Positions 47,449 to 64,000 of a stretch of 64,000 nt of DNA are shown here, in pieces. The notes below the pieces were generated by a model. The model saw only the letters and a program-made list of their open reading frames with translations. It was not told where the DNA came from and made no database searches. How positions within the stretch are numbered: position 1 is the first letter of the stretch; the number at the start of each line of letters is the position of its first letter. The position numbers and the translations under genes are program-made. Source of the DNA: Streptomyces toyocaensis. Lineage in GTDB: Bacteria > Actinomycetota > Actinomycetes > Streptomycetales > Streptomycetaceae. The stretch is taken from assembly GCF_000725125.1 (NCBI RefSeq), contig NZ_JFCB01000001.1, positions 124,001-188,000 of the forward strand, read 5' to 3'.

Positions 47449-49491
47449 ATGTCGGTGAGGCCTACAACTGTGCACCGAGAGTCCGACGAGATATCTGACG
47501 TCGCAATCGGGCGGTGGGCTCGGGGGACACTGAACGAAGCATCCCGGAGGGACGCGTTATCCGATATTCTCGGGGCTGATGTCAGTCACGAACTGGTCGA
47601 CTTCGCCGCGGGTGCCGGTGGAGACGTCCACCTGCTGGCCGAGTTCGCGCTCGGCCTCGCCGAGGAGGGGCTGACCGAACGGCGCAACGGTGTGGTCCGG
47701 CTCACCGTGCGGCGGATCCCGCGCCGTGTGCTGACCGCGGTGAGCAGCCAGTTGAGCGAACTGAGTGCGTCGTGCCAGCAGTTCCTCAAAGTCGCGGCGG
47801 TGCTGGGCAGGACCTTCATGCTGGAGGACGTGTCCAGAATGCTGGACCGGTCCTCGGCCAGTCTGCTCGCCCCTCTGGACGAGGCCCTGCTCTCCGGATT
47901 CGTCGTCGAAGCCGAACACCGACTGGCGTTCCAGAGCGATTTCCACTTCCGGGGGGTGTTCGAGTCCATTCCCGCGCCTGCGCGCGGCGCGTTGCAGCGT
48001 GAGGCAATGGGCACCTCCGCGCAACGCACCCGTGAGAACGCCGTGCGCGGCGGAACGGCCGGGCGGCCGGCCGCTTCACGCCGTGCGGCCGGAGAGGGAT
48101 CCGGTGGCCCGTGTTCCAGGGCCCACAGTCTCATCATGAAGGGCGACGCGGTCGCCGGCGTACGCGTCGCGGAAAGCCTTCTCGCCGATCCGGGAACATC
48201 GCATGCGGACCGGGTCGATGCGGAGGCGTCAGTGATTCTGGGATGCTTCCTGCTCGGGCAGGAAAGAGCCGTCACCCTTTCCGAGCGCATTCTTCGGGAG
48301 CGCGGCACCCGGCCGGGGGACGTCGCCGCATTGATGGCGCTCGCCACTCTGTCCAATGTGCGCTGGCGGGCCGGAGAACTGGCCGAAGGGCTAAGTCTCG
48401 GGCGCACCGCCGTACGCCACGGCGAGGATGCCGATCCCGTGTGGCGGCTGCATTTCCAGCTCGCCCTTGCGGGAAAGTTCGCCAACCTCCGGGAATTCGA
48501 CACGGCGGAATCGCTGATCGATGCCGCGGAGGCTGGTCTGCGGGACATGGTCTCACCGGTCTGGACGGCTGCGCCCGCGGCCATGCGGGCCCGGGTGTAT
48601 CTCCAGTCCAAGCGTCTGGGCGACGCGCGGCAGCAGGCGGAGGCGGCGACCGCCGCGTGGGAGCAGGAGGCTGTCCCCGTGCTCCGGCCGCTGGCGTCCT
48701 CCGTGCTCGGCACCATCTCGCTGTACCTGGGGGACCTGCCCGCGGCGATCGAGCACGTGGAGCGGATGCACACCGACCTGACGAGGTGTCAGGGAGTGCT
48801 GCTGTCCGCCCAGTACGCCTGGACGGACATACTGGTCACGGCCAAGAAGGACGGGCCCCGGGCGGCCGTCGAGTTGCTGTCCGGCACATACGGTCACCTG
48901 CCGACGCAGCGGTCTCTCTACATCGAGGACCCGAGTTCCGCCGCCTTTCTCGTCCGTCTGGCGCGCGATGTCGGTGACAGCGAGCTCAAGCGCAGCGTCC
49001 TCGACACCGTGGACGGTCTCGCGGGCGACAATCCCGGTTTCCAGATCGTCGGCCTCACGGCCATGCATGCCAACGCATTGGCCGACAGTGACACGGCCGC
49101 CCTGGCACACATCATCGTGGAGTCGCCGGATCCCGTTTCCGTCGCCCTGGCGACGGAGGAACTCGCCACGCTGTACGCGGCCCAGGCCCCGGCGCGGTGG
49201 CGGAAGACGATTTCCCCGCCGTCCGAGGACACCTCGTCACTCCGGAATCTCACCTGCTGGTCGCGCCTTACGGAGATGGAGCAGCGCATCTCCTATCTGG
49301 TGAGCGTGGGACTGACGAACCGCCAGATCGCGAGGCGCGTGCACCTGTCGGCCCACACGGTCAACTACCACCTCCGGAAGATCTACCGGAAACTGGGGAT
49401 CAACACGCGCGTCGAACTGGCGCGCCAGGCGGCTACCTATTCGAGTGGGGCCGCCGTCTACTCGATGGAGGGGGAGGAGAACAGCCTCTGA
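47449..49491 (+). CDS. LAL-like LuxR regulator lacking the ATPase domain, with a TTA codon
   Basis: A 680-residue regulator. It starts in what corresponds to the region after the nucleotide-binding core of LAL proteins (DFAAGAGGDVHLLAEFALGL, QFLKVAAVLGRTFMLEDVSR), continues as TPR-like helices (RAGELAEGLSLGRTAVRHGE) and ends in a LuxR HTH (LTEMEQRISYLVSVGLTNRQ, IARRVHLSAHTVNYHLRKIY, RKLGINTRVELARQAA). No Walker A or B motif is present. Codon 37 is TTA (47557-47559), so translation should depend on the bldA tRNA. GGGGGTA precedes ATG 47449. It converges with a full LAL gene and sits at the edge of the mevalonate operon, so it is probably a cluster-specific activator. Confidence 0.85.
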   Translation: MSVRPTTVHRESDEISDVAIGRWARGTLNEASRRDALSDILGADVSHELVDFAAGAGGDVHLLAEFALGLAEEGLTERRNGVVRLTVRRIPRRVLTAVSSQLSELSASCQQFLKVAAVLGRTFMLEDVSRMLDRSSASLLAPLDEALLSGFVVEAEHRLAFQSDFHFRGVFESIPAPARGALQREAMGTSAQRTRENAVRGGTAGRPAASRRAAGEGSGGPCSRAHSLIMKGDAVAGVRVAESLLADPGTSHADRVDAEASVILGCFLLGQERAVTLSERILRERGTRPGDVAALMALATLSNVRWRAGELAEGLSLGRTAVRHGEDADPVWRLHFQLALAGKFANLREFDTAESLIDAAEAGLRDMVSPVWTAAPAAMRARVYLQSKRLGDARQQAEAATAAWEQEAVPVLRPLASSVLGTISLYLGDLPAAIEHVERMHTDLTRCQGVLLSAQYAWTDILVTAKKDGPRAAVELLSGTYGHLPTQRSLYIEDPSSAAFLVRLARDVGDSELKRSVLDTVDGLAGDNPGFQIVGLTAMHANALADSDTAALAHIIVESPDPVSVALATEELATLYAAQAPARWRKTISPPSEDTSSLRNLTCWSRLTEMEQRISYLVSVGLTNRQIARRVHLSAHTVNYHLRKIYRKLGINTRVELARQAATYSSGAAVYSMEGEENSL

Positions 49492-49577
49492 GCCACCCCT
49501 TGGCATGTCATGTTCATTACCGAATCATGGGCATGACGGGCAGGGGGTGGCCCGGCCGGCGTCGCGTGGCGGACGGA

Positions 49578-52184
49578 TCAGCTCGTGGATCCGGACCGGG
49601 AGGCGCCGGCCGGCACCGGGGCAGGTGCCTCGTGAGCGAAGAAGTGCCGGGTGAGCTCGACGCGACTGTTGATGTCCAGCTTCGAGAACACCCGGCGCAG
49701 GTGGCTGTCGACGGTGTGGGGCGACAGGAACAGGACGCTCGCCGCCTCACGGTTGGTCCTGCCGTCGACGATCGCCCGTACCACGCGCAACTCGGCACTC
49801 GTGAGGCTCTCCCAGCCCGACTTGGGCCGGCCGGCGCCGAGTCGGCGCACGTGGTGCACGCCGAGACGGCGCAGCTTCTTCTGCGCGCGTGCCGTGTCAC
49901 GCGACGCCCCGCACTCCAGATAGAGGTCCAGGGCGGACTCGAGGAGCTGGACCGCCCGGCTTCTGTCACCCATGCCCTGATCCACCCGCGCCGCGTCCTC
50001 CAGGGCGTTGCCCGCCGCGAGCGGACGTCCGGCGAGCCGGTGGAGCTCCGCGGCGCGGTGCAGTGCGGTCGCGTCGTCGCGCAGCACGCCCTCCGCGTGT
50101 TCGGCTCCACCCCTCAGCGACCGCACCCCCGGGTTGCGCTCGGCGACGTGCCGCGCGAACGCGGCCGCCTGTTCGGCTTCCGCGTCGAGACCCGCCTGCC
50201 TGGCCTGGCGGACGAGCGTCGCGGCGGCGGTGGGGGCCTCGGAGAACAGCAACGGGTCGGGCGAGGCCTGTGCCTCGACGTCGATCAGGGTGCGGACCAT
50301 CATCGCAGGGCGCCCACTGGCCGCGTGGAACTGTGCGAGCGCCCAGTCCAGGCGGGTCCTGTCGGCTGCCGGGGCTCGGGGCACCAGGTGTTCGGCCAGG
50401 CGCAGCTGTTCACTGGCGGTCGCCAGATCATCGCACTGCGTACTGACGCGGGCCAGGACCAGGCGGGCCGGCACCGCGTGCCCGGACGGCGACCGCTCCA
50501 CCAGCCGGAGCGCGCTCTCGGCTTCGGCGCGGGCTTCCTCGAGCCGGCCCGTCGCCGCCAGCAGCTCGGCCCGGTGCCCGTGCCACAGGGACTCGGGCCA
50601 GGCCCCGCCGGCCCTGTCCGCCTCCTCCATGACGGCAGTGAGGACGGCGTCCGCTTCCTCGCACTGGTCGACCGCGACGAGGGCCCGGACCAGCCATGTC
50701 CACAGCGGGCTGTCGCACGGGACGGAGTCAGGCGTGGCCGCGGGCCGTCCGTCCCACACCGACGCCGCGCCCGGCCCGCACCCGTCCTGCCGGGCGGGCG
50801 TCCGGCGCGGCAGGACGGCGGACAGGTCGTGGCAGCCGGCCTCCCGCAGCCCCTGCCCCAGCTCCAGCACGAGCCGCGTCTCCGCCACCGCGTCAGGGCC
50901 GGGACGTACGGCGAGGTCCAGGAGACGGGAGGCCTCGGCATGCCGGCCCACCGTGACGAGCAGGCGCAGGGCCCGCGCCAGTGCCCCCGGCCCGTCGTCG
51001 CCGTGACACGCCAGTGCCGAGACGGCTCGGGCCGTCAGGGCGTCGTTCCTGTCACCCGCCGGTGACGGCTGCCCCGGCACGGCCGGAGTGACGGCAGACG
51101 ATGCGGAGGCCGGCGGAGCGGGGCGGACGTCCCGCGCGCCGGGCCTGGGAGGCTCCACGGCAAGAGCGGGCCCGGCGGTCGCGCCTTCCGCCGGGGCGCC
51201 GTGCCGAAGCGCCTCGGCGATCACCTCGTGGGTGAACGCGAGCTCCGCGCCCTCCCTGCGCAGCAGACCCGCCTGCACCGCCTCCCCGGCGGCGGCGGAC
51301 AGCGCGCCGGCCGGCTCGCCCAGCAGGTCCGCCACGTGCTCGGCCGTGAACGGACGGCCGGACCGCCCGCCGTGTTCCAGGAGCCGCCGGACCACGGGCG
51401 ACATGCCGGCCAGCAGCCGGTCGATCGCCGTACGGACGCCGACGGGCACGCGTTCGGTCAGCACCGAGGCCGTGCCGTCCAGGACCACGACCTGCCCGGC
51501 CTTCATGAGCGCGCGGAAGACGTTCTTCAGCAACCAGGGGTTGCCCTGGCAGCGCTCCGCCCACCGGAGCACGGACGCGTCGGGCTTGGCGCCGAGGACG
51601 CCGGTGCACAGCTCGGCCACCGCCTCGTCGTCCAGCGTCCCCACATGAAGCCGGACCGCGGCGTGGTCGATCAGCCAGTCGAGGGCGTGCTGGGCGAGCA
51701 CCGACGAGGGAACCGGCCGGCGGGCCAGCAGCCAGAGCACCGGCGACGAGGCGAGCGAGCGGACGAGTTCGCGCAGGGCCAGCGCGCTGACGTCGTCGAT
51801 CCGGTGGGCGTCGTCCAGCACGATCACCAGGGGGTGTCTGCGCGCCGCGTCCTCGACCAGGGAGCCGATCCGGTCCACGAGCCAGAAGGGGTTGCTGTCC
51901 GGGCGTGCCAGTTCGTCGAGTCCGTCCGCGCCGGGCAGGGCCCGCCGCAGGAAGTTGATCAGCAGATGCACGGGAGTGGTCGGCTGGTCGACGCCCCCCG
52001 TCCGCCCCACGACCGCCGTCAGGCCGCGGTCGGCCGCCTCCAGCGCCGCGGCCTGCAACAGCTGCGTCTTGCCCACCCCGAACGGGCCCTCGACGACGAC
52101 GCAGCTCCCGGACCCACGCGTCGTGGCGTCCAGGTGGGAGCCCAGGACGGACAGGATCCGCTCACGCCCGGCCAATGGATTCAT
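49578..52184 (-). CDS. LAL-type LuxR family regulator, terpenoid-cluster situated
   Basis: An 868-residue regulator. Walker A is GPFGVGKT at residues 33-40 and Walker B is PLVIVLDDAHRIDDVSA. A winged-helix-like sensor and TPR-like repeats follow, interrupted by a Pro/Ala-rich low-complexity linker around residues 340-385 (GARDVRPAPPASASSAVTPA). The C-terminal HTH is WESLTSAELRVVRAIVDGRT, NREAASVLFLSPHTVDSHLR, RVFSKLDINSRVELTRHFFA. It is divergent from the mevalonate operon across 438 bp that contain two strong palindromes, so direct control of that operon is likely. Confidence 0.88.
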   Translation of the reverse strand: MNPLAGRERILSVLGSHLDATTRGSGSCVVVEGPFGVGKTQLLQAAALEAADRGLTAVVGRTGGVDQPTTPVHLLINFLRRALPGADGLDELARPDSNPFWLVDRIGSLVEDAARRHPLVIVLDDAHRIDDVSALALRELVRSLASSPVLWLLARRPVPSSVLAQHALDWLIDHAAVRLHVGTLDDEAVAELCTGVLGAKPDASVLRWAERCQGNPWLLKNVFRALMKAGQVVVLDGTASVLTERVPVGVRTAIDRLLAGMSPVVRRLLEHGGRSGRPFTAEHVADLLGEPAGALSAAAGEAVQAGLLRREGAELAFTHEVIAEALRHGAPAEGATAGPALAVEPPRPGARDVRPAPPASASSAVTPAVPGQPSPAGDRNDALTARAVSALACHGDDGPGALARALRLLVTVGRHAEASRLLDLAVRPGPDAVAETRLVLELGQGLREAGCHDLSAVLPRRTPARQDGCGPGAASVWDGRPAATPDSVPCDSPLWTWLVRALVAVDQCEEADAVLTAVMEEADRAGGAWPESLWHGHRAELLAATGRLEEARAEAESALRLVERSPSGHAVPARLVLARVSTQCDDLATASEQLRLAEHLVPRAPAADRTRLDWALAQFHAASGRPAMMVRTLIDVEAQASPDPLLFSEAPTAAATLVRQARQAGLDAEAEQAAAFARHVAERNPGVRSLRGGAEHAEGVLRDDATALHRAAELHRLAGRPLAAGNALEDAARVDQGMGDRSRAVQLLESALDLYLECGASRDTARAQKKLRRLGVHHVRRLGAGRPKSGWESLTSAELRVVRAIVDGRTNREAASVLFLSPHTVDSHLRRVFSKLDINSRVELTRHFFAHEAPAPVPAGASRSGSTS

Positions 52185-52622: not shown

Positions 52623-53711
52623 ATGACCGTGAGTTATCTCGGAACAGCCGTGGAGCCGGCCGCCATTGATGCCGCGATCAGTGACTTCTTCGCGGAACGC
52701 CGAGCCGAGGCCGCTTCGCTCGGTGAGGACTTCGCGGCGACCGTCAAGGAGTTGGAGAACTACGTCCTGCGCGGCGGCAAGCGCGTCCGGCCGACGTTCG
52801 CCTGGCTGGGCTGGATCGGTGCCGGGGGTGACCCGGACGACCCGGTGGCCCCTGCCGTGCTTCGCGCCTGCGCGGGATTCGAGCTGCTGCACGCGTCGGG
52901 GCTGATCCACGACGACATCATCGACGCGTCCCAGACCCGTCGGGGCCATCCCGCCGCGCACGTGGTCTTCGCCGAGCGGCACCGGATGCGGCGCTTCTCC
53001 GGTGACCCGGGCGCCTTCGGCGCGGGCGCCGCCATCCTCGTCGGGGACCTCGCCCTGGTGTGGTCCGACGTCATGGTGCGTGCCTCCGGGCTGCCGGCGG
53101 ACGCGCAGACCCGGCTCGGACCGGTGTGGTCCGCGGTGCGGTACGAGGTGATGTACGGCCAGCTGCTCGACCTGATCAGCCAGGCCGGCGACGAGGAGGA
53201 CGTCGACGCGGCACTGCTCGTCGACCAGTACAAGACGGCCTCGTACACGGTGGAACGGCCCCTGCAGTTCGGTGCCGCGATCGCCGGCGCCGACTCCGGG
53301 CTCGTGGCGGCCTACCGGGCGTTCGGCGCCGACATCGGCATCGCCTTCCAGTTGCGCGACGACCTGCTGGGCGTGTTCGGCGACCCGGCGGTGACGGGCA
53401 AGCCGTCGGGGGACGACCTGCGCGAGGGCAAGCGGACGGTGCTGCTCGCGACGGCACTGCAGCGCGCGGACGCGCGCGATCCGCGGGCGGCGGCGTTCCT
53501 CAGGGCGACGATCGGGACCGACCTCGGGGACGACGACCTCGCCCGGGTCCGCGCCGTCCTCACCGATGTCGGCGCCGTGCGGCACATCGAACGGGAGATC
53601 GAACGCCGCACCGACCGGGCCATGGCGGTGCTGGAGGCGAGCAGCGCCACCGGTCTCGCGAAACAACAGCTCGCCGCGATGGCGACCAAGGCGACGCAGC
53701 GGGCCCACTGA
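52623..53711 (+). CDS. Polyprenyl diphosphate synthase (probable geranylgeranyl diphosphate synthase)
   Basis: A 362-residue trans-isoprenyl diphosphate synthase. The first Asp-rich motif is GLIHDDIIDASQTRRG (D97, D98, D101) and the second is AFQLRDDLLGVFGDPAVTGK (D246, D247). LRGGKRVRPTFAWLG holds the conserved IPP-binding GKR. The residue five before the first Asp is Ser and the fourth is Gly, leaving room for a chain longer than C15; GGPP is likely, a longer chain cannot be excluded. It opens the mevalonate operon and overlaps the mevalonate kinase start by one base, as in mevalonate clusters of terpenoid-producing Streptomyces. Confidence 0.9.
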   Translation: MTVSYLGTAVEPAAIDAAISDFFAERRAEAASLGEDFAATVKELENYVLRGGKRVRPTFAWLGWIGAGGDPDDPVAPAVLRACAGFELLHASGLIHDDIIDASQTRRGHPAAHVVFAERHRMRRFSGDPGAFGAGAAILVGDLALVWSDVMVRASGLPADAQTRLGPVWSAVRYEVMYGQLLDLISQAGDEEDVDAALLVDQYKTASYTVERPLQFGAAIAGADSGLVAAYRAFGADIGIAFQLRDDLLGVFGDPAVTGKPSGDDLREGKRTVLLATALQRADARDPRAAAFLRATIGTDLGDDDLARVRAVLTDVGAVRHIEREIERRTDRAMAVLEASSATGLAKQQLAAMATKATQRAH

Positions 53712-54811
53712 TGGCGACGACACCACAGCGCACCGTCGGCGGCCGCGCGGACCTCGTGGACGAGCCGGACTCCGGGCACCGGTCCTCCGGTGTCGGACGC
53801 GCCCACGGCAAGGCCATCCTGCTCGGTGAGCACGCCGTCGTGTACGGCGCCCCGGCGCTGGCCGTTCCGGTGCCCCAGCTGCCGGTCACCGCGAGCGCGA
53901 CGCGGCGCCCCGGGGACGACGGCGCGGACGAGGTGACCTTCGAGCTGGCCGGTCCCGGGTCCACGTCACGGATACCGTCGTCCTCGAGCGGACTGCAGCG
54001 CCTGGTCGCAGAGTTCAGGAAGTGGGCCGGCGCCGTGGACGGCCTGCGTGCGGACGTGCTCATCGACTGCTCGATCCCGCAGGGGCGTGGGCTCGGCTCC
54101 AGCGCCGCCTGCGCCCGGGCGGCGGTCCTGGCCCTCGCGGACCTCCTCGGCCGCCGCCTCGACGCCAGGACGACGTTCGACCTCGTACAGGCCTCCGAGA
54201 AGGTGACGCACGGGAGGGCGAGCGGCATCGACGCGCTCGCCACCGGCGCGACCTCCCCCCTGCTGTTCCGCTCCGGCACCGCCCGGGAGCTGCCGATGCC
54301 GATGCCCGGGGACGCCCCCGCGCCTCCCCGGGAGCGGGCCGCGGAGCGCGCCGCCCCCGACGGGTACCGCGGCCCCGGCGGAGTGTTCGTCATCGCGGAC
54401 AGCGGGATGAGCGGCGGCACCAGGGAGGCGGTGGAGCTGCTGCGGCGCAGGTTCGCGCGCGAACCGCGGACCCGGGAGGCGTTCGTCGGCCAGGTCTCGG
54501 ACCTGACGGACGAGGCCGTGCGCGACCTCGCCCACGGCCGGTGGGACGACTTCGGCACGCGGATGACCGAGAACCACCGGCTGCTCCGCGAGATCGGGAT
54601 CAGCACGGCCCGCATCGACGCCCTGGTCGAGGCCGCGCTGGCCGCGGGCGGCCTGGGCGCCAAGCTCAGTGGCGGCGGCCTGGGGGGCTGCATGATCGCG
54701 CTCGCCGACGAACCCGGCCGGACGGCGGCGGTCGTGAGCGGCCTCCGAGAAGCCGGTGCCGTCCGGACCTGGATCGTGCCGGCAGGAAGGTATGCGCACC
54801 ATGCGGACTGA
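53711..54811 (+). CDS. mvk: Mevalonate kinase
   Basis: A 366-residue GHMP kinase phosphorylating mevalonate. Conserved elements are GRAHGKAILLGEHAVVYGAP (motif 1), SIPQGRGLGSSAACARAAVL (phosphate-binding motif 2), THGRASGIDALAT (catalytic Asp region) and AKLSGGGLGGCMIALAD (motif 3). The N-terminal 30 residues before motif 1 are a family-variable extension. The ATG shares a base with the previous stop, and the stop overlaps the next gene by 11 bp. Confidence 0.93.
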   Translation: MATTPQRTVGGRADLVDEPDSGHRSSGVGRAHGKAILLGEHAVVYGAPALAVPVPQLPVTASATRRPGDDGADEVTFELAGPGSTSRIPSSSSGLQRLVAEFRKWAGAVDGLRADVLIDCSIPQGRGLGSSAACARAAVLALADLLGRRLDARTTFDLVQASEKVTHGRASGIDALATGATSPLLFRSGTARELPMPMPGDAPAPPRERAAERAAPDGYRGPGGVFVIADSGMSGGTREAVELLRRRFAREPRTREAFVGQVSDLTDEAVRDLAHGRWDDFGTRMTENHRLLREIGISTARIDALVEAALAAGGLGAKLSGGGLGGCMIALADEPGRTAAVVSGLREAGAVRTWIVPAGRYAHHAD

Positions 54812-55850
54812 CCATCGGGCGGGGCCGGTCGCGCCGGCCGTCGACGCCCCGGGCCACGGAGTGACGGCTGTGGCCCACCCCAACATCGCGTTGATCAAGT
54901 ACTGGGGCAAGCGCGACGAGCGGCTCATGATCCCGTACGTCGACAGCCTGTCGATGACGCTGGACATCTTCCCGACGACCACCACGGTCCGGCTGGACCC
55001 CGGGGCGCCGGCCGACAGTTTCACCCTCGACGGCTCCCCCGCCGAGGGCGAGGTGCGCCGGCGCGTCGTCGGCTTCCTCGACCTGCTGCGGGAGAGGTCC
55101 GGACGCTGCGAGCCGGCCGTCGTCGACACCCGCAACTCCGTGCCCACCGGGGCCGGACTGGCGTCCTCGGCGAGCGGTTTCGCAGCCCTGGCCCTGGCCG
55201 GCGCGGCCGCCTACGGGCTCGACCTCGATCGCACCGCGCTGTCCCGGCTGGCCCGCCGGGGGTCCGCGTCGGCCTCCCGGTCGATGTTCGGCGGCTTCGC
55301 GGTCTGTCATGCGGGCCGCGGCACCGGTGCGGCCGCGGACCTCGGCTCCTACGCGGAACCGGTGCCGGTTGCGGACTTCGATCCCGCGCTGGTGATCGCG
55401 GTGGTCGACGCGGGGGCCAAGGCCGTGTCCAGCCGGGCCGCCATGCGGCGGACCGTCGAGACCTCGCCGCTCTACCGCGCGTGGGCGACCTCCGGCAAGG
55501 CCGATCTGGCCGAGATGCGGGCGGCGTTGCGGCGGGGAGATCTCGACGCGGTCGGGGAGATCGCCGAGCGCAACGCCCTCGGCATGCACGCGACGATGCT
55601 GGCGGCACGGCCGGCGGTGCGCTATCTGTCGCCGGCCACGGTGTCCGTGCTCGACGGCGTGCTGCGGCTGCGTTCGGACGGCGTGCCGGCCTACGCGACG
55701 ATGGACGCCGGACCCAACGTCAAGGTGTTCTGCCACCCCGCGGACGCCGACCGGGTGGCCGAGGCGGTGCGCGGCGCCGCCCCGGGCTGCACGGTGTTCA
55801 CCGCGCGGCGCGGGCCGGGCGCCCGGCTGACGACGGAGGCCGAGCGGTGA
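54801..55850 (+). CDS. mvaD: Diphosphomevalonate decarboxylase
   Basis: A 349-residue GHMP-family decarboxylase producing isopentenyl diphosphate. VAHPNIALIKYWGKRDERLM is the family start signature; PYVDSLSMTLDIFPTTTTVR, NSVPTGAGLASSASGFAALA (phosphate loop and catalytic Ser region) and AYATMDAGPNVKVFCHPAD (catalytic Asp) follow. I prefer ATG 54801, 10 nt after GGAAGG; ATG 54792 is also in frame. It is coupled on both sides, the downstream junction being GTGA. Confidence 0.93.
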   Translation: MRTDHRAGPVAPAVDAPGHGVTAVAHPNIALIKYWGKRDERLMIPYVDSLSMTLDIFPTTTTVRLDPGAPADSFTLDGSPAEGEVRRRVVGFLDLLRERSGRCEPAVVDTRNSVPTGAGLASSASGFAALALAGAAAYGLDLDRTALSRLARRGSASASRSMFGGFAVCHAGRGTGAAADLGSYAEPVPVADFDPALVIAVVDAGAKAVSSRAAMRRTVETSPLYRAWATSGKADLAEMRAALRRGDLDAVGEIAERNALGMHATMLAARPAVRYLSPATVSVLDGVLRLRSDGVPAYATMDAGPNVKVFCHPADADRVAEAVRGAAPGCTVFTARRGPGARLTTEAER

Positions 55851-56956
55851 GCGCGGCGGTCACCCGGCACGCCCCGGGCAAGCTGTTCGTCCTCGGCGAG
55901 TACGCCGTGCTGGAACCGGGCCACCCGGCGGTCCTGGTGGCGGTCGACCGCCACGTCGGCGTCACCGTGTCGGCGGCCGACGGGGCAGAGGTCGTGATCG
56001 AGTCGGACCTCTCCCCGCGAGCGGCGTGCCTGCGGCGCGGTGCCGCCGGGCTCGGCGCCGACGCCGGTGCCGAGCCTCGGGTCCTGGACCGCCTCGGCCA
56101 CGTCGTGTCGGCGATCGACGTGGTCGACGGACTGCTGGCCGAGCGCGGACGGCGCGCGCCGCCGATCCGCGTCTCGGTCACCAGCCGCCTGCACCGTGAC
56201 GGAACGAAGTTCGGGCTGGGATCGAGCGGCGCGGTGACGGTCGCCACGGTGACTGCCCTGGCCGCGTACTACGGCATGGAACTGTCACCGGACGACCGGT
56301 TCCGGCTCGCGCTGCTGGCCACGGCGCGGCGCGACCCCCGCTCCTCCGGCGGCGATCTCGCCGCGAGCGTCTGGGGCGGCTGGGTCGCCTACCGTGCGCC
56401 CGACCGGGCAGCCGTGCTGGCCCTGGCGCGGCGCGGGGGTGTCGAGCACGCCCTCCGGGAGCCGTGGCCCGGGTTCTCGGTGCGCCGGCTGCCGCCGCCG
56501 CGCGGACTCGCGCTGGAGGTGGGCTGGACGGGACAACCGGCCAGCACCGCCTCGTTGACGGGCCGCCTGGAGACGGGGGAGTGGCGGGGCAGCACGGCCC
56601 AGCGGGACTTCGTCCGTCGCAGCGACGCCTGTGTGGAGGCCGCGATCCGCGCGCTCGAGCGGGGGGACGACGACGAGCTGCTGCACCGGATCCGCGGCGC
56701 GCGCCGGATGCTCGCCGATCTCGACGGCGCCGTCCGTCTCGGCATCTTCACCCCGGTGCTGACGGCCCTGTGCGACGTCGCCGAGGCCGTCGGCGGCGCC
56801 GCCAAGCCCTCGGGCGCCGGAGGCGGCGACTGCGGCATCGCGTTCCTGGAGGCCGCCGAGGCGTCGCGGGTGTCGCGACTGCGGGAGCGGTGGTCCGCCG
56901 CGGGGGTGCTCCCCCTGCCGATTCACATCCAGCCGACGAAAGGGAGCCCAGCATGA
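55847..56956 (+). CDS. Phosphomevalonate kinase
   Basis: A 369-residue GHMP kinase that makes diphosphomevalonate. APGKLFVLGEYAVLEPGHPA is the typical N-terminus (GKLF..GEY). KFGLGSSGAVTVATVTALAA is the phosphate loop, SSGGDLAASVWGGWVAYRAP the substrate region, and AAKPSGAGGGDCGIAFLEA the C-terminal GHMP motif. It overlaps the preceding and following genes by 4 bp each. Acts in the cytosol between mevalonate kinase and the decarboxylase. Confidence 0.92.
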   Translation: MSAAVTRHAPGKLFVLGEYAVLEPGHPAVLVAVDRHVGVTVSAADGAEVVIESDLSPRAACLRRGAAGLGADAGAEPRVLDRLGHVVSAIDVVDGLLAERGRRAPPIRVSVTSRLHRDGTKFGLGSSGAVTVATVTALAAYYGMELSPDDRFRLALLATARRDPRSSGGDLAASVWGGWVAYRAPDRAAVLALARRGGVEHALREPWPGFSVRRLPPPRGLALEVGWTGQPASTASLTGRLETGEWRGSTAQRDFVRRSDACVEAAIRALERGDDDELLHRIRGARRMLADLDGAVRLGIFTPVLTALCDVAEAVGGAAKPSGAGGGDCGIAFLEAAEASRVSRLRERWSAAGVLPLPIHIQPTKGSPA

Positions 56957-58059
56957 TCGCTGAGCGCAAGGACGCCCACGTGCGGTTCGCCACCGAGCAG
57001 CATCGCCGGCGCGGCGGGCACAACCAGTTCGACGACGTGTCCTTCGTGCATCACGCGCTGGCCGGCATCGACCGCTCCGACGTCTCGACGGTCACCCGCT
57101 TCGGCGGCATGGAGTGGCAGGTTCCGCTGTACATCAACGCGATGACCGGCGGCAGCCCCAAGACCGGGGAGATCAACCGCGATCTGGCGATCGCCGCCCG
57201 CGAGACCGGGGTCGCCGTCGCCACGGGATCCATCAGCCCGTACTTCGCCGACGCGTCGGTGGCGGACACCTTCAGCGTGATGCGCGAGGAGAACCCCGGT
57301 GGTTTCATCCTGGCGAACATCAACGCCAACGCCACCGTCGAGAAGGCACGCCGCGCCGTGGACCTGCTGCAGGCCGACGCCCTCCAGATCCACCTCAACG
57401 TGATCCAGGAGACGGTGATGCCGGAGGGCGACCGGTCGTTCGCCTCCTGGGGCCCGCGGATCGAGGAGATCGCGGCAGCCGTCGACGTCCCGCTGATCGT
57501 GAAGGAGGTCGGCTTCGGGCTCAGCCGCGAGACCCTGTTGCGGCTCCAGGAGATGGGCGTACGGGTCGCCGATGTCTCCGGCAGCGGCGGCACGGACTTC
57601 GCACGGATCGAGAACGACCGGCGTGACCGGCCCGACTACTCGTACCTCAACGGCTGGGGACAGTCCACCCCGGCCTGCCTCCTGGACGCCCACGGCGTCG
57701 GCCTCCCGGTGCTCGCCTCCGGCGGTGTCCGTCATCCGCTCGACGTGGCGCGCGCACTGGCACTCGGCGCCTCCGCCGTCGGGGCGTCCGGCCTGTTCCT
57801 CAAGACCGTGCTCGACGGCGGCGCCCCGGCCCTGATCTCGCTGCTGTCCTCGTGGATCGACCAGCTCACAGCCCTGATGACCGCGCTGGGCGCGCCCACC
57901 CCCGCCGACCTCGCCCGGTGCGACGTGCTCGTCCAGGGCGACCTGCGCGCGTTCTGCGCCGACCGGGGGATCGAGACCCGGTGGCTGGCGACCCGCTCCC
58001 GTTCCTACCGCACCAACTCCTCCAGCACGCACCACGAGACGATCGGAGGTTCCCGATGA
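56953..58059 (+). CDS. fni: Type 2 isopentenyl-diphosphate delta-isomerase (FMN/NADPH)
   Basis: A 368-residue TIM-barrel flavoenzyme interconverting IPP and DMAPP. The N-terminal RKDAHVRFATEQHRRR and FDDVSFVHHALAGIDRSDVS, the MTGGSPKTGEINRDLA loop, LQIHLNVIQETVMPEGDRSF, VKEVGFGLSRE and the FMN-phosphate motif VSGSGGTDFARIE are all present. SGGVRHPLDVARALALGASA completes the flavin site. ATGA coupling with phosphomevalonate kinase and with HMG-CoA reductase. Confidence 0.94.
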   Translation: MIAERKDAHVRFATEQHRRRGGHNQFDDVSFVHHALAGIDRSDVSTVTRFGGMEWQVPLYINAMTGGSPKTGEINRDLAIAARETGVAVATGSISPYFADASVADTFSVMREENPGGFILANINANATVEKARRAVDLLQADALQIHLNVIQETVMPEGDRSFASWGPRIEEIAAAVDVPLIVKEVGFGLSRETLLRLQEMGVRVADVSGSGGTDFARIENDRRDRPDYSYLNGWGQSTPACLLDAHGVGLPVLASGGVRHPLDVARALALGASAVGASGLFLKTVLDGGAPALISLLSSWIDQLTALMTALGAPTPADLARCDVLVQGDLRAFCADRGIETRWLATRSRSYRTNSSSTHHETIGGSR

Positions 58060-59120
58060 CCGAGTCCCATGCGGTCGCCGGCGTTCCCATGAAATGGGTG
58101 GGTCCCCTGCGCATGTCGGGGAACGTCGCCGAGCTCGAGACCCACGTGCCGCTCGCCACCTACGAGTCACCGCTGTGGCCCTCCGTCGGGCGCGGCGCAC
58201 GGCTGTCCACCATGGTCGAACAGGGCATCGTCACCACACTGGTCGACGAGCGGATGACGCGCTCGGTCTTCGTGAGGGCCGAGGACGCCCAGGCCGCCCA
58301 CATGGCCGCCCTGGAGGTCGACGCCCGCCTCGACGAACTCCGTGACGTCGTGCGCACCTGCGGCCGGTTCGTCGAACTCATCGGATTCCACCACGAGATC
58401 GCGGCCAACCTGCTGTTCCTCCGGTTCGAGTTCACCACGGGCGACGCGTCCGGGCACAACATGGCGACGCTGGCCGCCGACGCGCTCCTCAGCCACATCC
58501 TGCAGGCCATCCCCGGAATCACCTACGGCTCGATCTCGGGGAACTACTGCACGGACAAGAAGGCGACCGCGGTCAACGGCATCCTCGGGCGGGGCAAGAG
58601 GGTCGTCGCCGAACTCCTGCTGCCCCGTGACATCGTCCACAAGTCGCTGCGCACGACGGCCGCCGCGATGGCCGACCTGAACATCGGCAAGAACATGATC
58701 GGCACCCTGCTCGCGGGCGGGATCCGCTCGGCCAACGCCCACTACGCGAACATGCTGCTCGGCTTCTACCTGGCGACGGGCCAGGACGCGGCGAACATCG
58801 TGGAGGGCTCCCAGGGCGTGACCGTGGCCGAGGACCGGGACGGCGACCTGTACTTCTCCTGCACCCTGCCCAACCTGATCGTGGGGACGGTCGGCAACGG
58901 CAAGGGACTCGACTTCGTCGAAGAGAACCTTGAGCGGCTCGGCTGCCGCGCGGCGCGCGAGCCCGGCGACAACGCCCGGCGTCTCGCGGTCATCGCGGCC
59001 GCGACGGTGCTGTGCGGAGAACTCTCCCTGATGGCGGCCCAGACGAACCCCGGTGAGCTGATGCGGGCGCACGTCCGGCTGGAGCGCAGGAACGCGACGA
59101 CCAGGATCGGAGGCAAGTGA
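58056..59120 (+). CDS. mvaA: 3-hydroxy-3-methylglutaryl-CoA reductase
   Basis: A 354-residue soluble reductase forming mevalonate, without N-terminal membrane segments. Motifs of the family: PLATYESPLWPSVGRGARLS (catalytic Glu region), FEFTTGDASGHNMATLAADA (the cofactor DAMG-like helix), SGNYCTDKKATAVNGILGRG (catalytic Lys in DKK) and QDAANIVEGSQGVTVAE (Asp). The sequence follows class I enzymes of Streptomyces mevalonate clusters and probably uses NADPH. Coupled to fni by ATGA and to HMG-CoA synthase by a one-base overlap. Confidence 0.94.
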   Translation: MTESHAVAGVPMKWVGPLRMSGNVAELETHVPLATYESPLWPSVGRGARLSTMVEQGIVTTLVDERMTRSVFVRAEDAQAAHMAALEVDARLDELRDVVRTCGRFVELIGFHHEIAANLLFLRFEFTTGDASGHNMATLAADALLSHILQAIPGITYGSISGNYCTDKKATAVNGILGRGKRVVAELLLPRDIVHKSLRTTAAAMADLNIGKNMIGTLLAGGIRSANAHYANMLLGFYLATGQDAANIVEGSQGVTVAEDRDGDLYFSCTLPNLIVGTVGNGKGLDFVEENLERLGCRAAREPGDNARRLAVIAAATVLCGELSLMAAQTNPGELMRAHVRLERRNATTRIGGK

Positions 59121-60295
59121 TGCCCGGGGACCTCACCGTGGGAATCCACGACCTGTCCGTCGCGACGACGCAGTACGTCCTGACGCACGAGACGCTGGCC
59201 GGCCACAACGGCACGGGTGTCGCCAAGTACCACCGGGGCATCGGCCAGCGCGCGATGAGCGTGCCGGCCGCCGACGAGGACATCGTGACGATGGCCGCCG
59301 ACGCCGCCGCGCCCGTCGTCGCCCGGCACGGCGCCGACCGGATCAGGACGGTGGTCTTCGCGACCGAGACGTCCGTCGACCAGTCGAAGGCGGCGGGGGT
59401 CTACGTCCACTCGCTGCTGGGGCTGCCGTCCGCCGCCCGCGTCGTGGAGCTCAAGCAGGCCTGCTACAGCGGGACGGCGGCCCTGCAGTTCGCCATGGGA
59501 CTCGTGCACCGGGACCCCTCGGAGCAGGTCCTCGTGATCGCCAGTGACGTCTCCAGGTACGAGCTGGGCAGTCCGGGCGAGGCGACGCAGGGCGCCGCGG
59601 CGGTGGCCATGCTGGTCGGCGCGGATCCGGCACTGGTGCGCCTGGAGGACCGGTCAGGGATGTTCACCGCCGACATCATGGACTTCTGGCGGCCGAACTA
59701 CCTCACCACCGCCCTGGTCGACGGCCGGGAGTCCATCTCCGCCTACCTGCAGGCGGTGGAAGGCGCGTGGAAGGACTACACCGAGCGCGGCGGCCGGAAG
59801 CTCGGCGAGTTCAGCGCCTTCTGCTACCACCAGCCGTTCACGAAGATGGCCCACAAGGCGCACCGGCACCTGCTCCAGCACAACGGTCACGCCGCCGACG
59901 AGGAGGAGATCACCCGCGCCATAGGCCACACGACGGCCTACAACGTCGAGATCGGCAACAGCTACACCGCGTCGATGTACGTCGGGCTGGCCTCGCTGCT
60001 CGACCACGCCGACGACCTGAGCGGTGAGGTCATCGGCTTCCTGAGCTACGGGTCCGGCAGCGTCGCGGAGTTCTTCGCCGGCACCGTCGTCCCGGGATAC
60101 CGCGCGCGGTTGCGCTCCGACGCGCACCGCGAGGCGATAGGCCGCCGGCAGCAGATCGACTACGCCAGGTACCGCGAGCTCCACGAGCGGTCCTTCCCGG
60201 CCGACGGCGGGGACCATCCCACGCCGCGGGAGACCACGGGGCCGTACCGGCTCGTCGGGCTCTCCGGCCACAAGCGCATCTACGCGGCGCGGTAA
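59120..60295 (+). CDS. mvaS: 3-hydroxy-3-methylglutaryl-CoA synthase
   Basis: A 391-residue thiolase-fold enzyme condensing acetyl-CoA with acetoacetyl-CoA. The catalytic triad is visible: Glu in VVFATETSVDQSKA (E83), Cys in VELKQACYSGTAALQ (C115) and His in FCYHQPFTKMAHKAH (H237). IGHTTAYNVEIGNSYTASMY and LSYGSGSVAEFFAGTV are further signatures. ATG 59120 is 6 nt after GGAGG. It is the last of the pathway genes; the prenyltransferase starts 65 bp later. Confidence 0.95.
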   Translation: MPGDLTVGIHDLSVATTQYVLTHETLAGHNGTGVAKYHRGIGQRAMSVPAADEDIVTMAADAAAPVVARHGADRIRTVVFATETSVDQSKAAGVYVHSLLGLPSAARVVELKQACYSGTAALQFAMGLVHRDPSEQVLVIASDVSRYELGSPGEATQGAAAVAMLVGADPALVRLEDRSGMFTADIMDFWRPNYLTTALVDGRESISAYLQAVEGAWKDYTERGGRKLGEFSAFCYHQPFTKMAHKAHRHLLQHNGHAADEEEITRAIGHTTAYNVEIGNSYTASMYVGLASLLDHADDLSGEVIGFLSYGSGSVAEFFAGTVVPGYRARLRSDAHREAIGRRQQIDYARYRELHERSFPADGGDHPTPRETTGPYRLVGLSGHKRIYAAR

Positions 60296-60360: not shown

Positions 60361-61248
60361 ATGTCCACAACCTCCGAGGCGGACGAGATCTATTCCGCCG
60401 TCACGGAAACAGCAGGACGGCTGGGCATAGCCTTTTCGCGCGACAAGGTCCGTCCCATTCTTTCGGCGTACGGGGACGCCTTCGCGCATGCCATGCCATT
60501 GGCCTTCAGGATGGCGACCGGTCCGCGGCACGCGGGTGATGTCGACTGCCGTTTCATCACGCACCCGAAGGACCGGAACCCGTATCCGCTGGCCGTGTCC
60601 AAAGGGCTCACCCCGAGGACGAGCCACCCCGTCGGAGCCTTGCTCCCGGACATCGAGGAACGCTTTCCGGTCGACGGGTTCGGTATCGACTTCGGAGTGG
60701 TGAGCGGCTTCACGAAGGTCTATGCGGGCTTCGCTCCGAAGGACCTGCAGAAGGTGTCGGAGCTCGTCGGGACACCGGCCATGCCGGACAGCCTCGCCCA
60801 CAACTTCGACTTCTTCGTCCGTAACGGCCTGGACGACAAGGTCGCGTTCGTTGCGGTCGACTACCTGCACAGAACCGTGAACGTGTACTTCAACGACGTG
60901 CCCGCGGCATGCTTCGAGGCCGACGGAATCCGGCGGATGCTCCGTGACATCGGACTGCCGGAGCCGAGCGAGCGCATGCTCGGGATCGGCAGCCGGGCCT
61001 TCGGGCTCTACATCACCCTGAACTGGGACTCTCCGGCGATCGAGCGGTTCTGCTTCGGTGTGACGACCACGGACCTGTCGAGCCTTCCCGTTCCCGTCGA
61101 GCCACAGCTCGAGAAATTCGCAGAGAGCGTTCCCTACGGCGGCGCGGACCGAAAATTCGTGTACGGCGTCGCCGCGGCCGCCGAAGGGGAGTACTACAAA
61201 CTCGAGACGCACTACAAGTGGAATCCCGGGACCGTGGCCTTCATCTGA
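60361..61248 (+). CDS. ABBA aromatic prenyltransferase (NphB/CloQ family)
   Basis: A 295-residue soluble enzyme that transfers a prenyl group to an aromatic carbon. It aligns along its length with NphB: EIYSAVTETAGRLGIAFSRD near the start, AVSKGLTPRTSHPVGALLPD, FGVVSGFTKVYAGFAPKDLQ, VAVDYLHRTVNVYFNDVP, LYITLNWDSPAIERFCFGVT and EYYKLETHYKWNPGTVAFI at the end. The DDxxD motif is absent, as in this family. ATG 60361 has GGAG 6 nt upstream; a TTG at 60349 is less likely. It lies behind a complete mevalonate pathway and GGPP synthase, so its donor may be GPP, FPP or GGPP; the acceptor is not encoded in the visible part. Confidence 0.9.
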   Translation: MSTTSEADEIYSAVTETAGRLGIAFSRDKVRPILSAYGDAFAHAMPLAFRMATGPRHAGDVDCRFITHPKDRNPYPLAVSKGLTPRTSHPVGALLPDIEERFPVDGFGIDFGVVSGFTKVYAGFAPKDLQKVSELVGTPAMPDSLAHNFDFFVRNGLDDKVAFVAVDYLHRTVNVYFNDVPAACFEADGIRRMLRDIGLPEPSERMLGIGSRAFGLYITLNWDSPAIERFCFGVTTTDLSSLPVPVEPQLEKFAESVPYGGADRKFVYGVAAAAEGEYYKLETHYKWNPGTVAFI

Positions 61249-61395: not shown

Positions 61396-63045
61396 ATGAG
61401 ACCAGTGAACACATTGCACAGGGCCCTCATTCCGTGGCCCGCGGAAGTCGACCCGGAGCACCTGCGCGAGGCCACATCGCGGTTGGTCACACATGTCAGC
61501 GGTCAGGTCGACGACGGGGGCGCGATACGCGGGGAGTGCCACAGCCGGGTGCTGGAATCCGCGCTCGCGCTGTCGCTGATGACGCGCACCGGTGCCGCCT
61601 CGCCGGCCCGGGACCGGGTACTCGCCTTCCTCCGGGAACACCTCGACTCCCCGCATGAGTTCGACCGGGTCCTCGCCACGCTGGCAGTCGGGCGCGCCAC
61701 CGACCGGGCATCCGCCGCGGACGCCGACATCGTCGGCAAGCTCACCGAGGCGCTGCTCGGCGCCGCACCGGCGTTCATCTCCGGCCGCCGGCGCAGGATG
61801 CTGTACGCCGTGCTGTCGCTGTTCGGATGCCCGGTGCCGCCCGACGCCGCCCCGGAAGCCGACGAGAAGGCCCCCACGGATTCCGTCCACTCCTGGGCCG
61901 CCGTCCAGCAGGCCGCGGTCACGCTGGTCCTCTCCAACGCCTCGGGCGTCAGCAACGGAGCCACGTCCGCCGCACTGCGGACGCTGAACGCCGTGCGTCC
62001 GGCGACGACGGTGTGGGAGGGCTACGTACTGCTGCACCTGCTGTCGCTGCACGGGCTCGCCGGCGTACCCGGGCAGGAGGAGACCGTCCGCAGCGGCCTG
62101 CGGACCCTGCTGCGGTACCAGCGTGACGACGGCGGCTTCCCGTTCGTGGTGGACCTCCAGCACTGGTGCACGTCGACCGCCGGCATCGCGCTCGCCGCAG
62201 CCGGTTCGCGCCCCGGCGTGCTGCGGGCCATGGCGGAGGCGCTGGTCGCCCACGAGGTCGACGAGTCGCAGCGCTCCCTGTGCCTCTCCCTCTCCCGCGG
62301 TGAGCCGCTGGCGGACGGCTGGTCCTTCGGTCCCCGTGTGGCGCAGAACGACGTCGACTGCACCTCGTGCATCCTGGAGTTCCTGCACGGCGTCGACCCC
62401 GTCGGCCACGGCGGCGCCGTGCGGCGCGGCGTGGACGCGCTGCTCGCCGTCCAGGGCGCCGACGGAGGGTTCCCCACCTATGTCGCCGGCGCCGCCTCCG
62501 AGCCGTGCATGACCGCCGCGGCCGTCAACGCGCTCGCCCCGCACCCCTCCACCCGGCCGGCCCGGCAGCGTGCTCTGGCGTTCCTGGCCGGCAGCCAGCT
62601 CCCGGACGGCGGATTCGAACCGGGGTGGAGCCGCAGCCGGCTGCACGCGATGTTCCGTGCGCGCCTCGCGGCCTGCACGGCCGGCCCGGACGACCACCGT
62701 GCGGCCCGCATGGCCGAACGGATCGACCACTCGGTGCGTGAGACGCAGAACCCCGACGGCGGCTGGGGGATGCAGCCGGGCGATCCCAGCGACCCCATCA
62801 GCACCGCCTACGGGCTGATCATCCTGTGCTACGGGACCGCGTCGCCGCCCGTCGGGCGCGCCCTGTCCTGGCTGCTCGCCCACCAGAACGCGGACGGCGG
62901 CTACAGCGGCCCGCCCGACATGGTCGGCCCCCGCCCGTTCCCGTACCACATCCCGGTCCTGACCGACGCCCCCGTGCTCCTCGCGCTGGGGCACGTGCGC
63001 CACCGGGTGCAGGGCACGGCGACCCTGCTCAGAGACGTGGCATAG
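61396..63045 (+). CDS. Class II terpene cyclase-like protein with variant DxDD (DVDC)
   Basis: A 549-residue protein of the prenyltransferase/squalene-oxidase-repeat fold, the length of bacterial beta-gamma class II diterpene cyclases. Several QW-like repeats are present: YQRDDGGFPFVVDL, VQGADGGFPTYV, SQLPDGGFEPGW, TQNPDGGWGMQPG and HQNADGGYSGPP. At the position of the catalytic DxDD acid motif the sequence is QNDVDCTSCILEFL (D319, D321, C322), so the last Asp is Cys. No class I DDxxD was seen. ACAGGAG precedes ATG 61396. It could start cyclisation of GGPP or of a prenylated aromatic product by protonation. Loss of one Asp may change or abolish that activity. Confidence 0.8.
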   Translation: MRPVNTLHRALIPWPAEVDPEHLREATSRLVTHVSGQVDDGGAIRGECHSRVLESALALSLMTRTGAASPARDRVLAFLREHLDSPHEFDRVLATLAVGRATDRASAADADIVGKLTEALLGAAPAFISGRRRRMLYAVLSLFGCPVPPDAAPEADEKAPTDSVHSWAAVQQAAVTLVLSNASGVSNGATSAALRTLNAVRPATTVWEGYVLLHLLSLHGLAGVPGQEETVRSGLRTLLRYQRDDGGFPFVVDLQHWCTSTAGIALAAAGSRPGVLRAMAEALVAHEVDESQRSLCLSLSRGEPLADGWSFGPRVAQNDVDCTSCILEFLHGVDPVGHGGAVRRGVDALLAVQGADGGFPTYVAGAASEPCMTAAAVNALAPHPSTRPARQRALAFLAGSQLPDGGFEPGWSRSRLHAMFRARLAACTAGPDDHRAARMAERIDHSVRETQNPDGGWGMQPGDPSDPISTAYGLIILCYGTASPPVGRALSWLLAHQNADGGYSGPPDMVGPRPFPYHIPVLTDAPVLLALGHVRHRVQGTATLLRDVA

Positions 63046-63077
63046 CGGCGGTACCACTCGCCGACAGGACACGACAT

Positions 63078-63119
63078 GCCGACTGCCGGCGAAGCCATCG
63101 GGCTTCGCCGGCAGTCGGC
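63078..63119. terminator. Bidirectional terminator: perfect 19 bp stem, ATCG loop
   Basis: Arms GCCGACTGCCGGCGAAGCC / GGCTTCGCCGGCAGTCGGC separated by 4 nt, centred between the converging cyclase and haloperoxidase-like genes. Confidence 0.88.
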
Positions 63120-63137
63120 TGTGGACGGTGAGGAGGG

Positions 63138-64000
63138 TCAGCCGCCGTTCACCTTGCGCTGAACGTACTCGTAGGCGAGGTCGCCGATCTGCGGAGCGTA
63201 CTGGGACGCCGCCTCGATGGAGGCGCGGAAGTTCTGACCGCCCCAGAGACGGCTCTCACCGCATTCCCGGGCGAAGTCCGTCAGGCTGCTCCAGCGCAGC
63301 GTCATGTCCTCGGCCGGGGTGACTCCCGGCTCGACGAAGGAGGAGCCCTTGGCGACGGAGTGGGCGATGTTGAGCGTGTCCGTGCCGGTGAAACGCCGTG
63401 TCAGGTGGGCGAAGGCCAGGCACTCCGCGGCTTCCGCGGAGGGGTACTCGGGGTGGTCGGGAGCCTTGACCGGGTGGTCGGCGGGCCAGGCGTCCAGATA
63501 AGCCCGCCACTCGTCGCCCCTGAGGTCGTTGACGGTCCCCTCTCCGGGGCCGCCCCACGCCGTCACCTTCTTCTTCCCGTACAGGTGGCGGATGGCGCTG
63601 AACGGCCGGACCGAGTCGTACTTCCGCTTCAGGTGCCAGGTGGCGATGGAGAGATCGTAGAACCCGATGTCGCGCACGACGGTGTAGTGAATGGTCTTCT
63701 CGACGTCGTACCTTCCCCCGACGATGACCGGCACCGTACCGACGAGTCCGAAGGTGTCGAAGTTGCTGTTGAAGAGTTCAGCGGCCATCTTCCGGCGGTC
63801 GTCCAGGAGCGCCGATGCCCTGAGAACCTCGTCGGCCTGTCGTTTGTAGGCCGTGTGGTGGTGGTGGTTGCTCTTCCACGGGGGAGACACCTTGAACCGG
63901 GTGGGACTGTCGTACGTGAACGGTTTGACCCGGCCGAAGTGCGGAGTGGCGAACTTCTGGACGGTGAAGACACCGTTCTTCTCGAACGTGTTCGGCTGCC
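63138..64000 (-). CDS. Vanadium-dependent haloperoxidase-like protein lacking the axial histidine, partial
   Basis: 287 C-terminal residues are visible; the frame is open to the right edge with ATPHFGRVKPFTYDSPTRF, so the start lies outside. The acid-phosphatase/haloperoxidase fold is recognised by WHLKRKYDSVRPFSAIRHLY (Lys and Arg of motif 1), HPEYPSAEAAECLAFAHLTR (motif 2, PSA-E in place of PSGH) and GESRLWGGQNFRASIEAA (motif 3). In motif 3 the vanadate-coordinating His of the usual SRxxxGxHF is Asn. Genuine halogenation is therefore doubtful; meroterpenoid clusters are known to contain haloperoxidase relatives that do rearrangements without halogenation. It converges with the cyclase across a terminator. 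Confidence 0.75.
   Translation of the reverse strand, partial: QPNTFEKNGVFTVQKFATPHFGRVKPFTYDSPTRFKVSPPWKSNHHHHTAYKRQADEVLRASALLDDRRKMAAELFNSNFDTFGLVGTVPVIVGGRYDVEKTIHYTVVRDIGFYDLSIATWHLKRKYDSVRPFSAIRHLYGKKKVTAWGGPGEGTVNDLRGDEWRAYLDAWPADHPVKAPDHPEYPSAEAAECLAFAHLTRRFTGTDTLNIAHSVAKGSSFVEPGVTPAEDMTLRWSSLTDFARECGESRLWGGQNFRASIEAASQYAPQIGDLAYEYVQRKVNGG

Follow-up and report, generated by a model that had tools for sequence, protein, structure and literature searches.

What does a bacterial gene cluster make when it couples a full mevalonate operon to an aromatic prenyltransferase and a class II terpene cyclase? Such a locus lies at the right end of a 64,000-nucleotide stretch of Streptomyces toyocaensis DNA (the window; G000:C1:124001-188000). 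The original prediction, drawn from the letters of the window, was a mevalonate-fed, meroterpenoid-type cluster with its aromatic-core genes past the right edge. As judged from gene content and homology, we find that the cluster is real, complete and conserved, and that it is of the diazepinomicin kind. It is likely that it represents a diazepinomicin-type pathway with one added cyclase step, which would make a ring-closed (drimane-like) N-farnesyl dibenzodiazepinone.

The aromatic-core genes lie beyond the window edge. We extended the window to the right by the next 36 kb, called genes with a simple script and annotated them with Pfam and NCBIfam; the Pfam scan covered every gene called between 38.9 and 100 kb, and coordinates past 64000 continue the window numbering. 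The extension contains aminobenzoate genes, as anticipated. The cluster spans about 48 kb, from about 47.4 to 95.0 kb, and the window holds its left part (Table 1). There, the predicted coupled operon of a prenyl diphosphate synthase and all six mevalonate and isomerase genes is borne out by the family models and by gene overlaps. Five of the six joints are overlaps of 1 or 4 bases, the sole non-overlap in the seven-gene run being a 58-base gap between mevalonate kinase and the decarboxylase. The aromatic prenyltransferase, class II cyclase-like and haloperoxidase-like genes and the two regulators on the left, also predicted, are all recognised by Pfam.

The core gene set is that of diazepinomicin. 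Diazepinomicin (ECO-4601, TLN-4601, BU-4664L; Micromonospora 046Eco-11 and RV115) derives its ring A from 3-hydroxyanthranilate, by a PhzE/PhzD/dehydrogenase route that is common to the window cluster (PMC3871700). In the diazepinomicin cluster the 3-hydroxy-3-methylglutaryl coenzyme A (HMG-CoA) synthase gene adjoins the prenyltransferase gene, an arrangement also found in the window, and the prenyltransferase DzmP farnesylates the dibenzodiazepinone at the amide nitrogen, with farnesyl diphosphate (FPP) as preferred donor (PMC3871700). We judged likeness to the 046Eco-11 cluster through its published description and through G901, a Micromonosporaceae genome that bears the dzmP primer sites. 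Exact matches in G901 exist for the published orf10 primer and for the gene portions of the two dzmP primers, with a spacing that corresponds to a 296-amino-acid gene. Counterparts of at least 55% identity exist in G901 for 32 of the 39 window cluster genes compared (scored by best piece, whatever the coverage), and the PhzE-, PhzD- and dehydrogenase-type genes for 3-hydroxyanthranilate reach 75-85%. Two G901 counterparts are doubtful: the beta-ketoacyl-acyl carrier protein synthase III (KAS III) at 36% and the sensor kinase at 35%. The window kinase gene is separated from the prenyltransferase gene by the cyclase and haloperoxidase-like genes, and its product is 66-69% identical to those of G911 and G912. 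No counterpart was found in the 80 kb of G901 used for comparison for the cyclase, DUF6223, DoxX, DegT and g61, which constitute what the window cluster adds to that stretch.

A Streptomyces cluster of this kind was already noticed in 2013, when the S. griseoflavus Tu4000 cluster containing ssrg_00986 was reported as putatively encoding diazepinomicin (PMC3871700). Outside their engineered sites, the published ssrg_00986 primers agree with the window flanks at 15 of 15 upstream and 13 of 14 downstream positions, the best result among six loci (window included). Ssrg_00986 and the window prenyltransferase are equal in length (295 amino acids); there are two base differences past the start codon, and one base is missing from the stop-side primer as printed. 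Exact parts of these primers had no match in 181 loci, nor did the start-side part in 392 Streptomyces genomes; the agreement emerged once mismatches and engineered sites were taken into account. Neither “cyclase” nor “haloperoxidase” is mentioned in the main text of PMC3871700. The original prediction had recognised no described compound for this gene combination. This holds for the cyclised product, since no description of a cyclised dibenzodiazepinone was found in the open-access literature searched, but not for the core set or its sister cluster in Tu4000. Within that literature, the added cyclase step and the predicted ring-closed product appear new.

Both halves of the cluster form one unit, because the mevalonate operon and the prenyltransferase gene directly adjoin PhzE and the core in A. 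pelletieri and A. spongiicola. The layout is shared by seven Micromonosporaceae genomes (G912, G901, G671, G686, G911, G702 and G726), two of them without an HMG-CoA synthase gene and three without an isomerase gene. The window's own arrangement recurs in S. carminius, S. speibonae, S. malachitofuscus and NK15101 (the genes of S. speibonae are fragmented at several points, so its identities derive from pieces). In A. alba about 50 kb separates the halves on a single contig, with the mevalonate operon and the sole PF11468 gene in the second half. NK08204, G074 and G132 have the core and the prenyltransferase, with no mevalonate genes in the stretch read. An eighth Micromonosporaceae genome, G848, has the core, and no PF11468 gene was found in it; G645 has a more distant core only. 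Because the same set recurs in other genera, the association of these genes lies far beyond chance. Among 392 Streptomyces genomes, the genome of the window counted, 12 have a relative of the amidohydrolase-like protein at 1e-30. The LuxR-type regulator has counterparts at 56-69% in 10 of 19 related stretches and one more at 29%, the rest being not found or outside the stretch; the LAL-type regulator has a counterpart in most related stretches.

Two further observations concern gene content. The HMG-CoA synthase gene is absent from four, and the isopentenyl diphosphate (IPP) isomerase gene from three, of the nine mevalonate-operon stretches of Micromonosporaceae and Actinomadura. Core modules that have no prenyltransferase within the 31-40 kb read occur in other Streptomyces and in G419 (loci L116-L135; G101, G275, G341, G337, G545, G580, G443 and G419). 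This suggests related unprenylated products.

The comparison yields a gene-by-gene hypothesis for diazepinomicin, from which we infer each chemical step, whether prenylation precedes cyclisation, and the final product. Ring A would arise from chorismate, fed by the cluster 3-deoxy-D-arabino-heptulosonate 7-phosphate (DAHP) synthase, via 3-hydroxyanthranilate made by the PhzE-type synthase, PhzD-type isochorismatase and DhbA-type dehydrogenase. For ring B, aspartate semialdehyde from the cluster aspartokinase would be converted to 3-amino-4-hydroxybenzoate by the GriI- and GriH-type enzymes. These three enzyme types are also present in G901, from whose stretch DegT is missing, and so point to 3-amino-4-hydroxybenzoate rather than 3-amino-5-hydroxybenzoate, a route that differs from the published proposal. 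The salicylate-monooxygenase-like flavoprotein (by oxidative decarboxylation) and the second ring hydroxylase would then probably give 2-amino-6-hydroxybenzoquinone, a compound named in PMC6524458. A NatL2-type ligase may join the two ring precursors, and the amidohydrolase-like protein is a candidate for closing the seven-membered ring. The best solved relatives of the ligase are 6siw (611 bits), which we take to be NatL2 although the entry itself is named PaaK-like ligase, and AjiA1 (6wuq; 602 bits).

Such a ligase, together with the 3-hydroxyanthranilate genes, an amidohydrolase-family gene and a nearby KAS III-like gene, would also suit a prenylated benzoxazole of the nataxazole/A33853 kind in place of a dibenzodiazepinone. 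We consider this core quite improbable. The window amidohydrolase-like protein has 253 amino acids and belongs to PF04909, whereas NatAM is traced to residue 494 (PMC7204872), and the sole solved relative by sequence of the window protein is 3cjp (0.00038). Furthermore, two flavin hydroxylases and a DzmP-type prenyltransferase accompany the core, and the gene set matches that of a genome with dzmP primer sites. A plain benzoxazole, the early reading of the right flank, was dropped on the diazepinomicin match and on the amidohydrolase not being NatAM-like. The altered metal site of this protein is shared by almost every close row; HxH or Asp appears in some rows at 46-57%.

The chain attached to the dibenzodiazepinone is probably farnesyl, not geranylgeranyl. 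The first Asp-rich region of the prenyl diphosphate synthase, which bears on chain length, is identical to that of G901 over the 22 columns shown, and DzmP prefers FPP. The original prediction of a geranylgeranyl diphosphate (GGPP)-type synthase is thus unsupported, and GGPP synthase identity was dropped on the agreement with G901; the best solved relatives score almost equally (an FPP synthase at 306 bits, a GGPP synthase at 304 bits). The window prenyltransferase shares 63% identity with the protein encoded between the dzmP primer sites in G901. Its Arg50 and Arg64 align with arginines of that protein (published DzmP positions 51 and 64), as in the magnesium-independent ABBA kind. The mevalonate operon would therefore supply FPP, and the DzmP-type prenyltransferase would place farnesyl on the amide nitrogen.

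The prenyltransferase also scores 206 bits against 1zb6, presumably NphB, and the mevalonate gene order is that of naphterpin-type clusters. Since related cyclases occur in a type III polyketide synthase (PKS) cluster (L030), a naphterpin-type naphthoquinone meroterpenoid could be envisaged. It is highly improbable here: of the genes called between 38.9 and 100 kb, the HMG-CoA synthase alone matches a chalcone/stilbene synthase model (PF00195, 36.6 bits), and it scores far higher with its own models. A naphterpin-type core was rejected, as no type III PKS was found among the genes called there.

The added cyclase is linked to aromatic prenyltransferases. We find an aromatic prenyltransferase in the same fetched locus as 25 of 27 cyclase relatives, which agrees with the earlier view that the two genes belong together. 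The two exceptions are A. alba, with its separated halves, and a locus whose contig breaks off at the cyclase gene. The cyclase lies directly behind the prenyltransferase, at 85-94% and with the same motif, in five Streptomyces clusters (window, S. malachitofuscus, S. speibonae in pieces, S. carminius and NK15101), and A. alba has it within its group of core genes. In total, 6 of 20 related stretches have the cyclase. A relative of at least 60% was found in 11 of 392 Streptomyces genomes (own included); any match at 0.001 occurs in 200 of the 392, mostly weak. No relative at 1e-20 was found in 9 of 19 genomes searched, including all eight Micromonosporaceae, and in A. pelletieri, A. spongiicola and NK08204 the relative is on another contig than this cluster. 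Alternatively, the cluster might make diazepinomicin itself, with the cyclase a passenger or part of another pathway. The 14 related stretches that have no cyclase fit this explanation, as does the published reading of the Tu4000 cluster as one for diazepinomicin (PMC3871700). We think it unlikely, because the gene is kept in the same position in five clusters, recurs among the A. alba core genes and has close relatives tied to aromatic prenyltransferases.

The cyclase is predicted to act on a prenylated aromatic. Its motif, DVDCTS (residues 319-324), keeps the catalytic Asp, as Asp321 aligns with Asp303 of SsDMS, and has DxDC in place of the complete DxDD. A Cys follows the catalytic Asp in oxidosqualene cyclases as well. 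SsDMS, the drimenyl diphosphate synthase of Streptomyces showdoensis, takes FPP and is the best solved relative (36-37% identity); the predicted model of the window cyclase matches its fold over the whole length (Z 37.9, root-mean-square deviation 4.5-4.6, 477-479 residues). The window cyclase differs from SsDMS in the motif and in the replacement of four basic residues. Arg27, Arg409, Arg506 and Lys176 (window numbering) are present in SsDMS and in all 13 rows of the drimenyl-synthase-like group at 36-38%, whereas their equivalents are replaced in 37, 37, 36 and 37, respectively, of the 37 rows of the prenyltransferase-linked clade. This would fit a substrate without a diphosphate. MstE, the merosterolic acid synthase solved with prenylated dihydroxybenzoates, provides a precedent for a cyclase acting after a prenyltransferase. 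Its fold appears related in the model comparison (Z about 30), although it has about 350 residues against 549 and 17-18% identity. Fold-match rows from rank 26 on, mostly toroid sugar enzymes, were not used.

The reverse order, in which the cyclase first converts FPP to a drimenyl-type diphosphate that the prenyltransferase then attaches, is suggested by the nearest solved relative being an FPP-using drimenyl diphosphate synthase. It is improbable in view of the replaced basic residues, the DxDC motif and the use of linear FPP by DzmP-type prenyltransferases (PMC3871700). In the preferred order, prenylation before cyclisation, Asp321 would protonate the end of the attached chain, at the terminal olefin or at an epoxide if one is made first, and the chain would close to a drimane-like ring system. 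The extra cyclase would then probably fold the terpene tail of a relative of an antitumour compound into rings, a compound type so far undescribed in the literature searched. Diazepinomicin itself reached a phase II cancer trial, and according to the 2013 paper its individual genes and enzymes had not been experimentally investigated (PMC3871700). The comparison also provides a short list of conserved enzymes and a group of strains likely to make cyclised relatives.

Cyclases of the prenyltransferase-linked clade span dibenzodiazepinone-, phenazine- and naphthoquinone-like clusters. The motif is DxDC in 12 of the 37 close rows (window included), DxDD in 24 (five of these rows being the same genome twice) and DxDS in one; the more distant rows show DxDD except for five at 40-44%, which have DxDC. 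In a 51-row tree, the five Streptomyces cyclases of this cluster group together as a single clade, whose sister group includes the phenazine-linked ones; A. alba is placed outside. One S. speibonae fragment was excluded from the tree and the group counts, and removal of five identical rows reduced the set from 56 to 51. Two label changes are required by the supported branches; on this tree, the cyclase was recruited either twice or once with a later switch.

Other members of the clade have distinct surroundings. Loci L008, L140 (G381) and L141 (G371) combine a cyclase at 75-76% and a prenyltransferase at 40-41% with PhzE, PhzD and DAHP synthase neighbours, and look like loci for cyclised phenazine meroterpenoids. 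L030-like loci (L016, L018 and L020-L031 except L027) have DxDD (in one case DxDS) cyclase relatives and an aromatic prenyltransferase. L030, the one scanned, also has a type III PKS, a BBE-type flavoprotein, a cupin, DegT and a methyltransferase. These loci look like naphthoquinone meroterpenoid clusters.

The haloperoxidase-like protein of the cluster has lost its axial vanadate ligand. It reads GGQNF for GGxHF, with Asn in place of a His that binds vanadate in all vanadium haloperoxidases known so far (PMC11871015). Thus, the gene is present as predicted, whereas haloperoxidase activity is unsupported. The napyradiomycin enzymes NapH1 and NapH3 score 340 and 376 bits over most of its length and, like 9l8x and 9ptr, keep the His. 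Among 24 rows, the His is lost in 18 (Asn in 17, Gln in A. alba), one row from each of 18 clusters including the window. The six rows that keep it are the sole copy in G848, a genome without the prenyltransferase, and second copies elsewhere. Such second, more distant copies (42-49%) lie in the same stretch in A. alba, NK08204, A. paucisporea, G686 and G702, and some of these sister clusters may halogenate. The called genes of the window cluster include the His-less copy only, and its product is expected, from this substitution, not to halogenate; halogenation or halonium-driven cyclisation by it was dropped for the same reason. A haloperoxidase annotation of the His-less group is unwarranted without an assay.

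Several points weigh against a diazepinomicin-type pathway with an added cyclase step. Ssrg_00986 is reported to be at least 10 times slower on the dibenzodiazepinone than DzmP, with no clear preference for FPP, and no diazepinomicin was obtained from Tu4000 in either of two media (PMC3871700). A cave Streptomyces has the diazepinomicin core with a cluster described as little similar to the Micromonospora one (PMC6524458), and McAlpine et al. proposed 3-amino-5-hydroxybenzoate for ring B (as cited in PMC3871700 and PMC6524458). In the amidohydrolase-like protein, HxR replaces the usual HxH and Glu replaces the last Asp, which makes its activity uncertain. The cyclase model is of moderate quality (mean predicted local distance difference test score 80.6), with values below 50 at residues 288-309 and 312-317, just before the motif. 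No epoxidase dedicated to pairing with the DxDC motif was identified, and the proposed pathway gives the haloperoxidase-like protein no established role. A more tentative proposal, which we hold to be less likely true than false, would give it one. In this proposal, a meroterpenoid cyclase has joined the diazepinomicin pathway at least twice in actinobacteria, with the result of so far undescribed polycyclic drimane-like terpenyl dibenzodiazepinones, and the His-less haloperoxidase relative is a metal-free catalyst that, for example, closes or rearranges the dibenzodiazepinone ring.

Table 1. Genes of the cluster in window coordinates, continued past the window edge at 64000.
Feature	Position	Strand	Evidence
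LuxR-type cluster regulator (GerE domain, MalT-like tetratricopeptide repeats)	47371..49491	+	PF00196 3e-12
LAL-type regulator (AAA_16 + LuxR)	49578..52184	-	PF13191 4.2e-17, PF00196 4.4e-13
Polyprenyl diphosphate synthase, probably FPP synthase	52623..53711	+	PF00348 9.5e-46
Mevalonate kinase	53711..54811	+	TIGR00549 over cut-off
Diphosphomevalonate decarboxylase	54870..55850	+	TIGR01240 over cut-off
Phosphomevalonate kinase	55847..56956	+	TIGR01220 over cut-off
Type 2 IPP isomerase	56953..58059	+	TIGR02151 over cut-off
HMG-CoA reductase	58056..59120	+	PF00368 4.8e-80, over cut-off
HMG-CoA synthase	59120..60295	+	TIGR01835 over cut-off
ABBA aromatic prenyltransferase, DzmP/Ssrg_00986-like, 295 amino acids from ATG at 60361	60361..61248	+	PF11468 9.8e-59
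Class II terpene cyclase, 549 amino acids	61396..63045	+	SQHop_cyclase_C PF13243, 4.4e-12
Haloperoxidase-like protein, crosses window edge at 64000	63138..64553	-	DUF6851 + VCPO_2nd (PF21167 + PF22778)
Sensor kinase	64915-66150		
MMPL transporter	66380-68563		
DUF6223, glyoxalase-like, DUF485, sodium:solute symporter	up to 71839		
Response regulator	71929		
Multicopper oxidase	73283-75277		
PhzE-type chorismate enzyme	75710-77713	-	
Aspartokinase	77932		
GriI-type aldolase	79234		
GriH-type enzyme	80110		
Amidohydrolase-like protein, 253 amino acids	81246-82007		PF04909
NatL2/BagE-type ligase	82001		
Flavin monooxygenase (salicylate-monooxygenase-like flavoprotein)	83331		
DhbA-type dehydrogenase	84518		
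PhzD-type isochorismatase	85337		
SDR	86032		
DUF6081	86726		
Second flavin hydroxylase	87763		
Class II DAHP synthase	89504		
DegT	90715		
KAS III-like	92117		
Regulator-like genes g61 and g62	up to 94971		

Just left of the cluster, the IucA/IucC-type genes, which had no match in the related stretches searched with them, belong to a siderophore-type locus at 42481-47005 that consists of two divergent IucA/IucC-FhuF genes and a VWA-domain gene.

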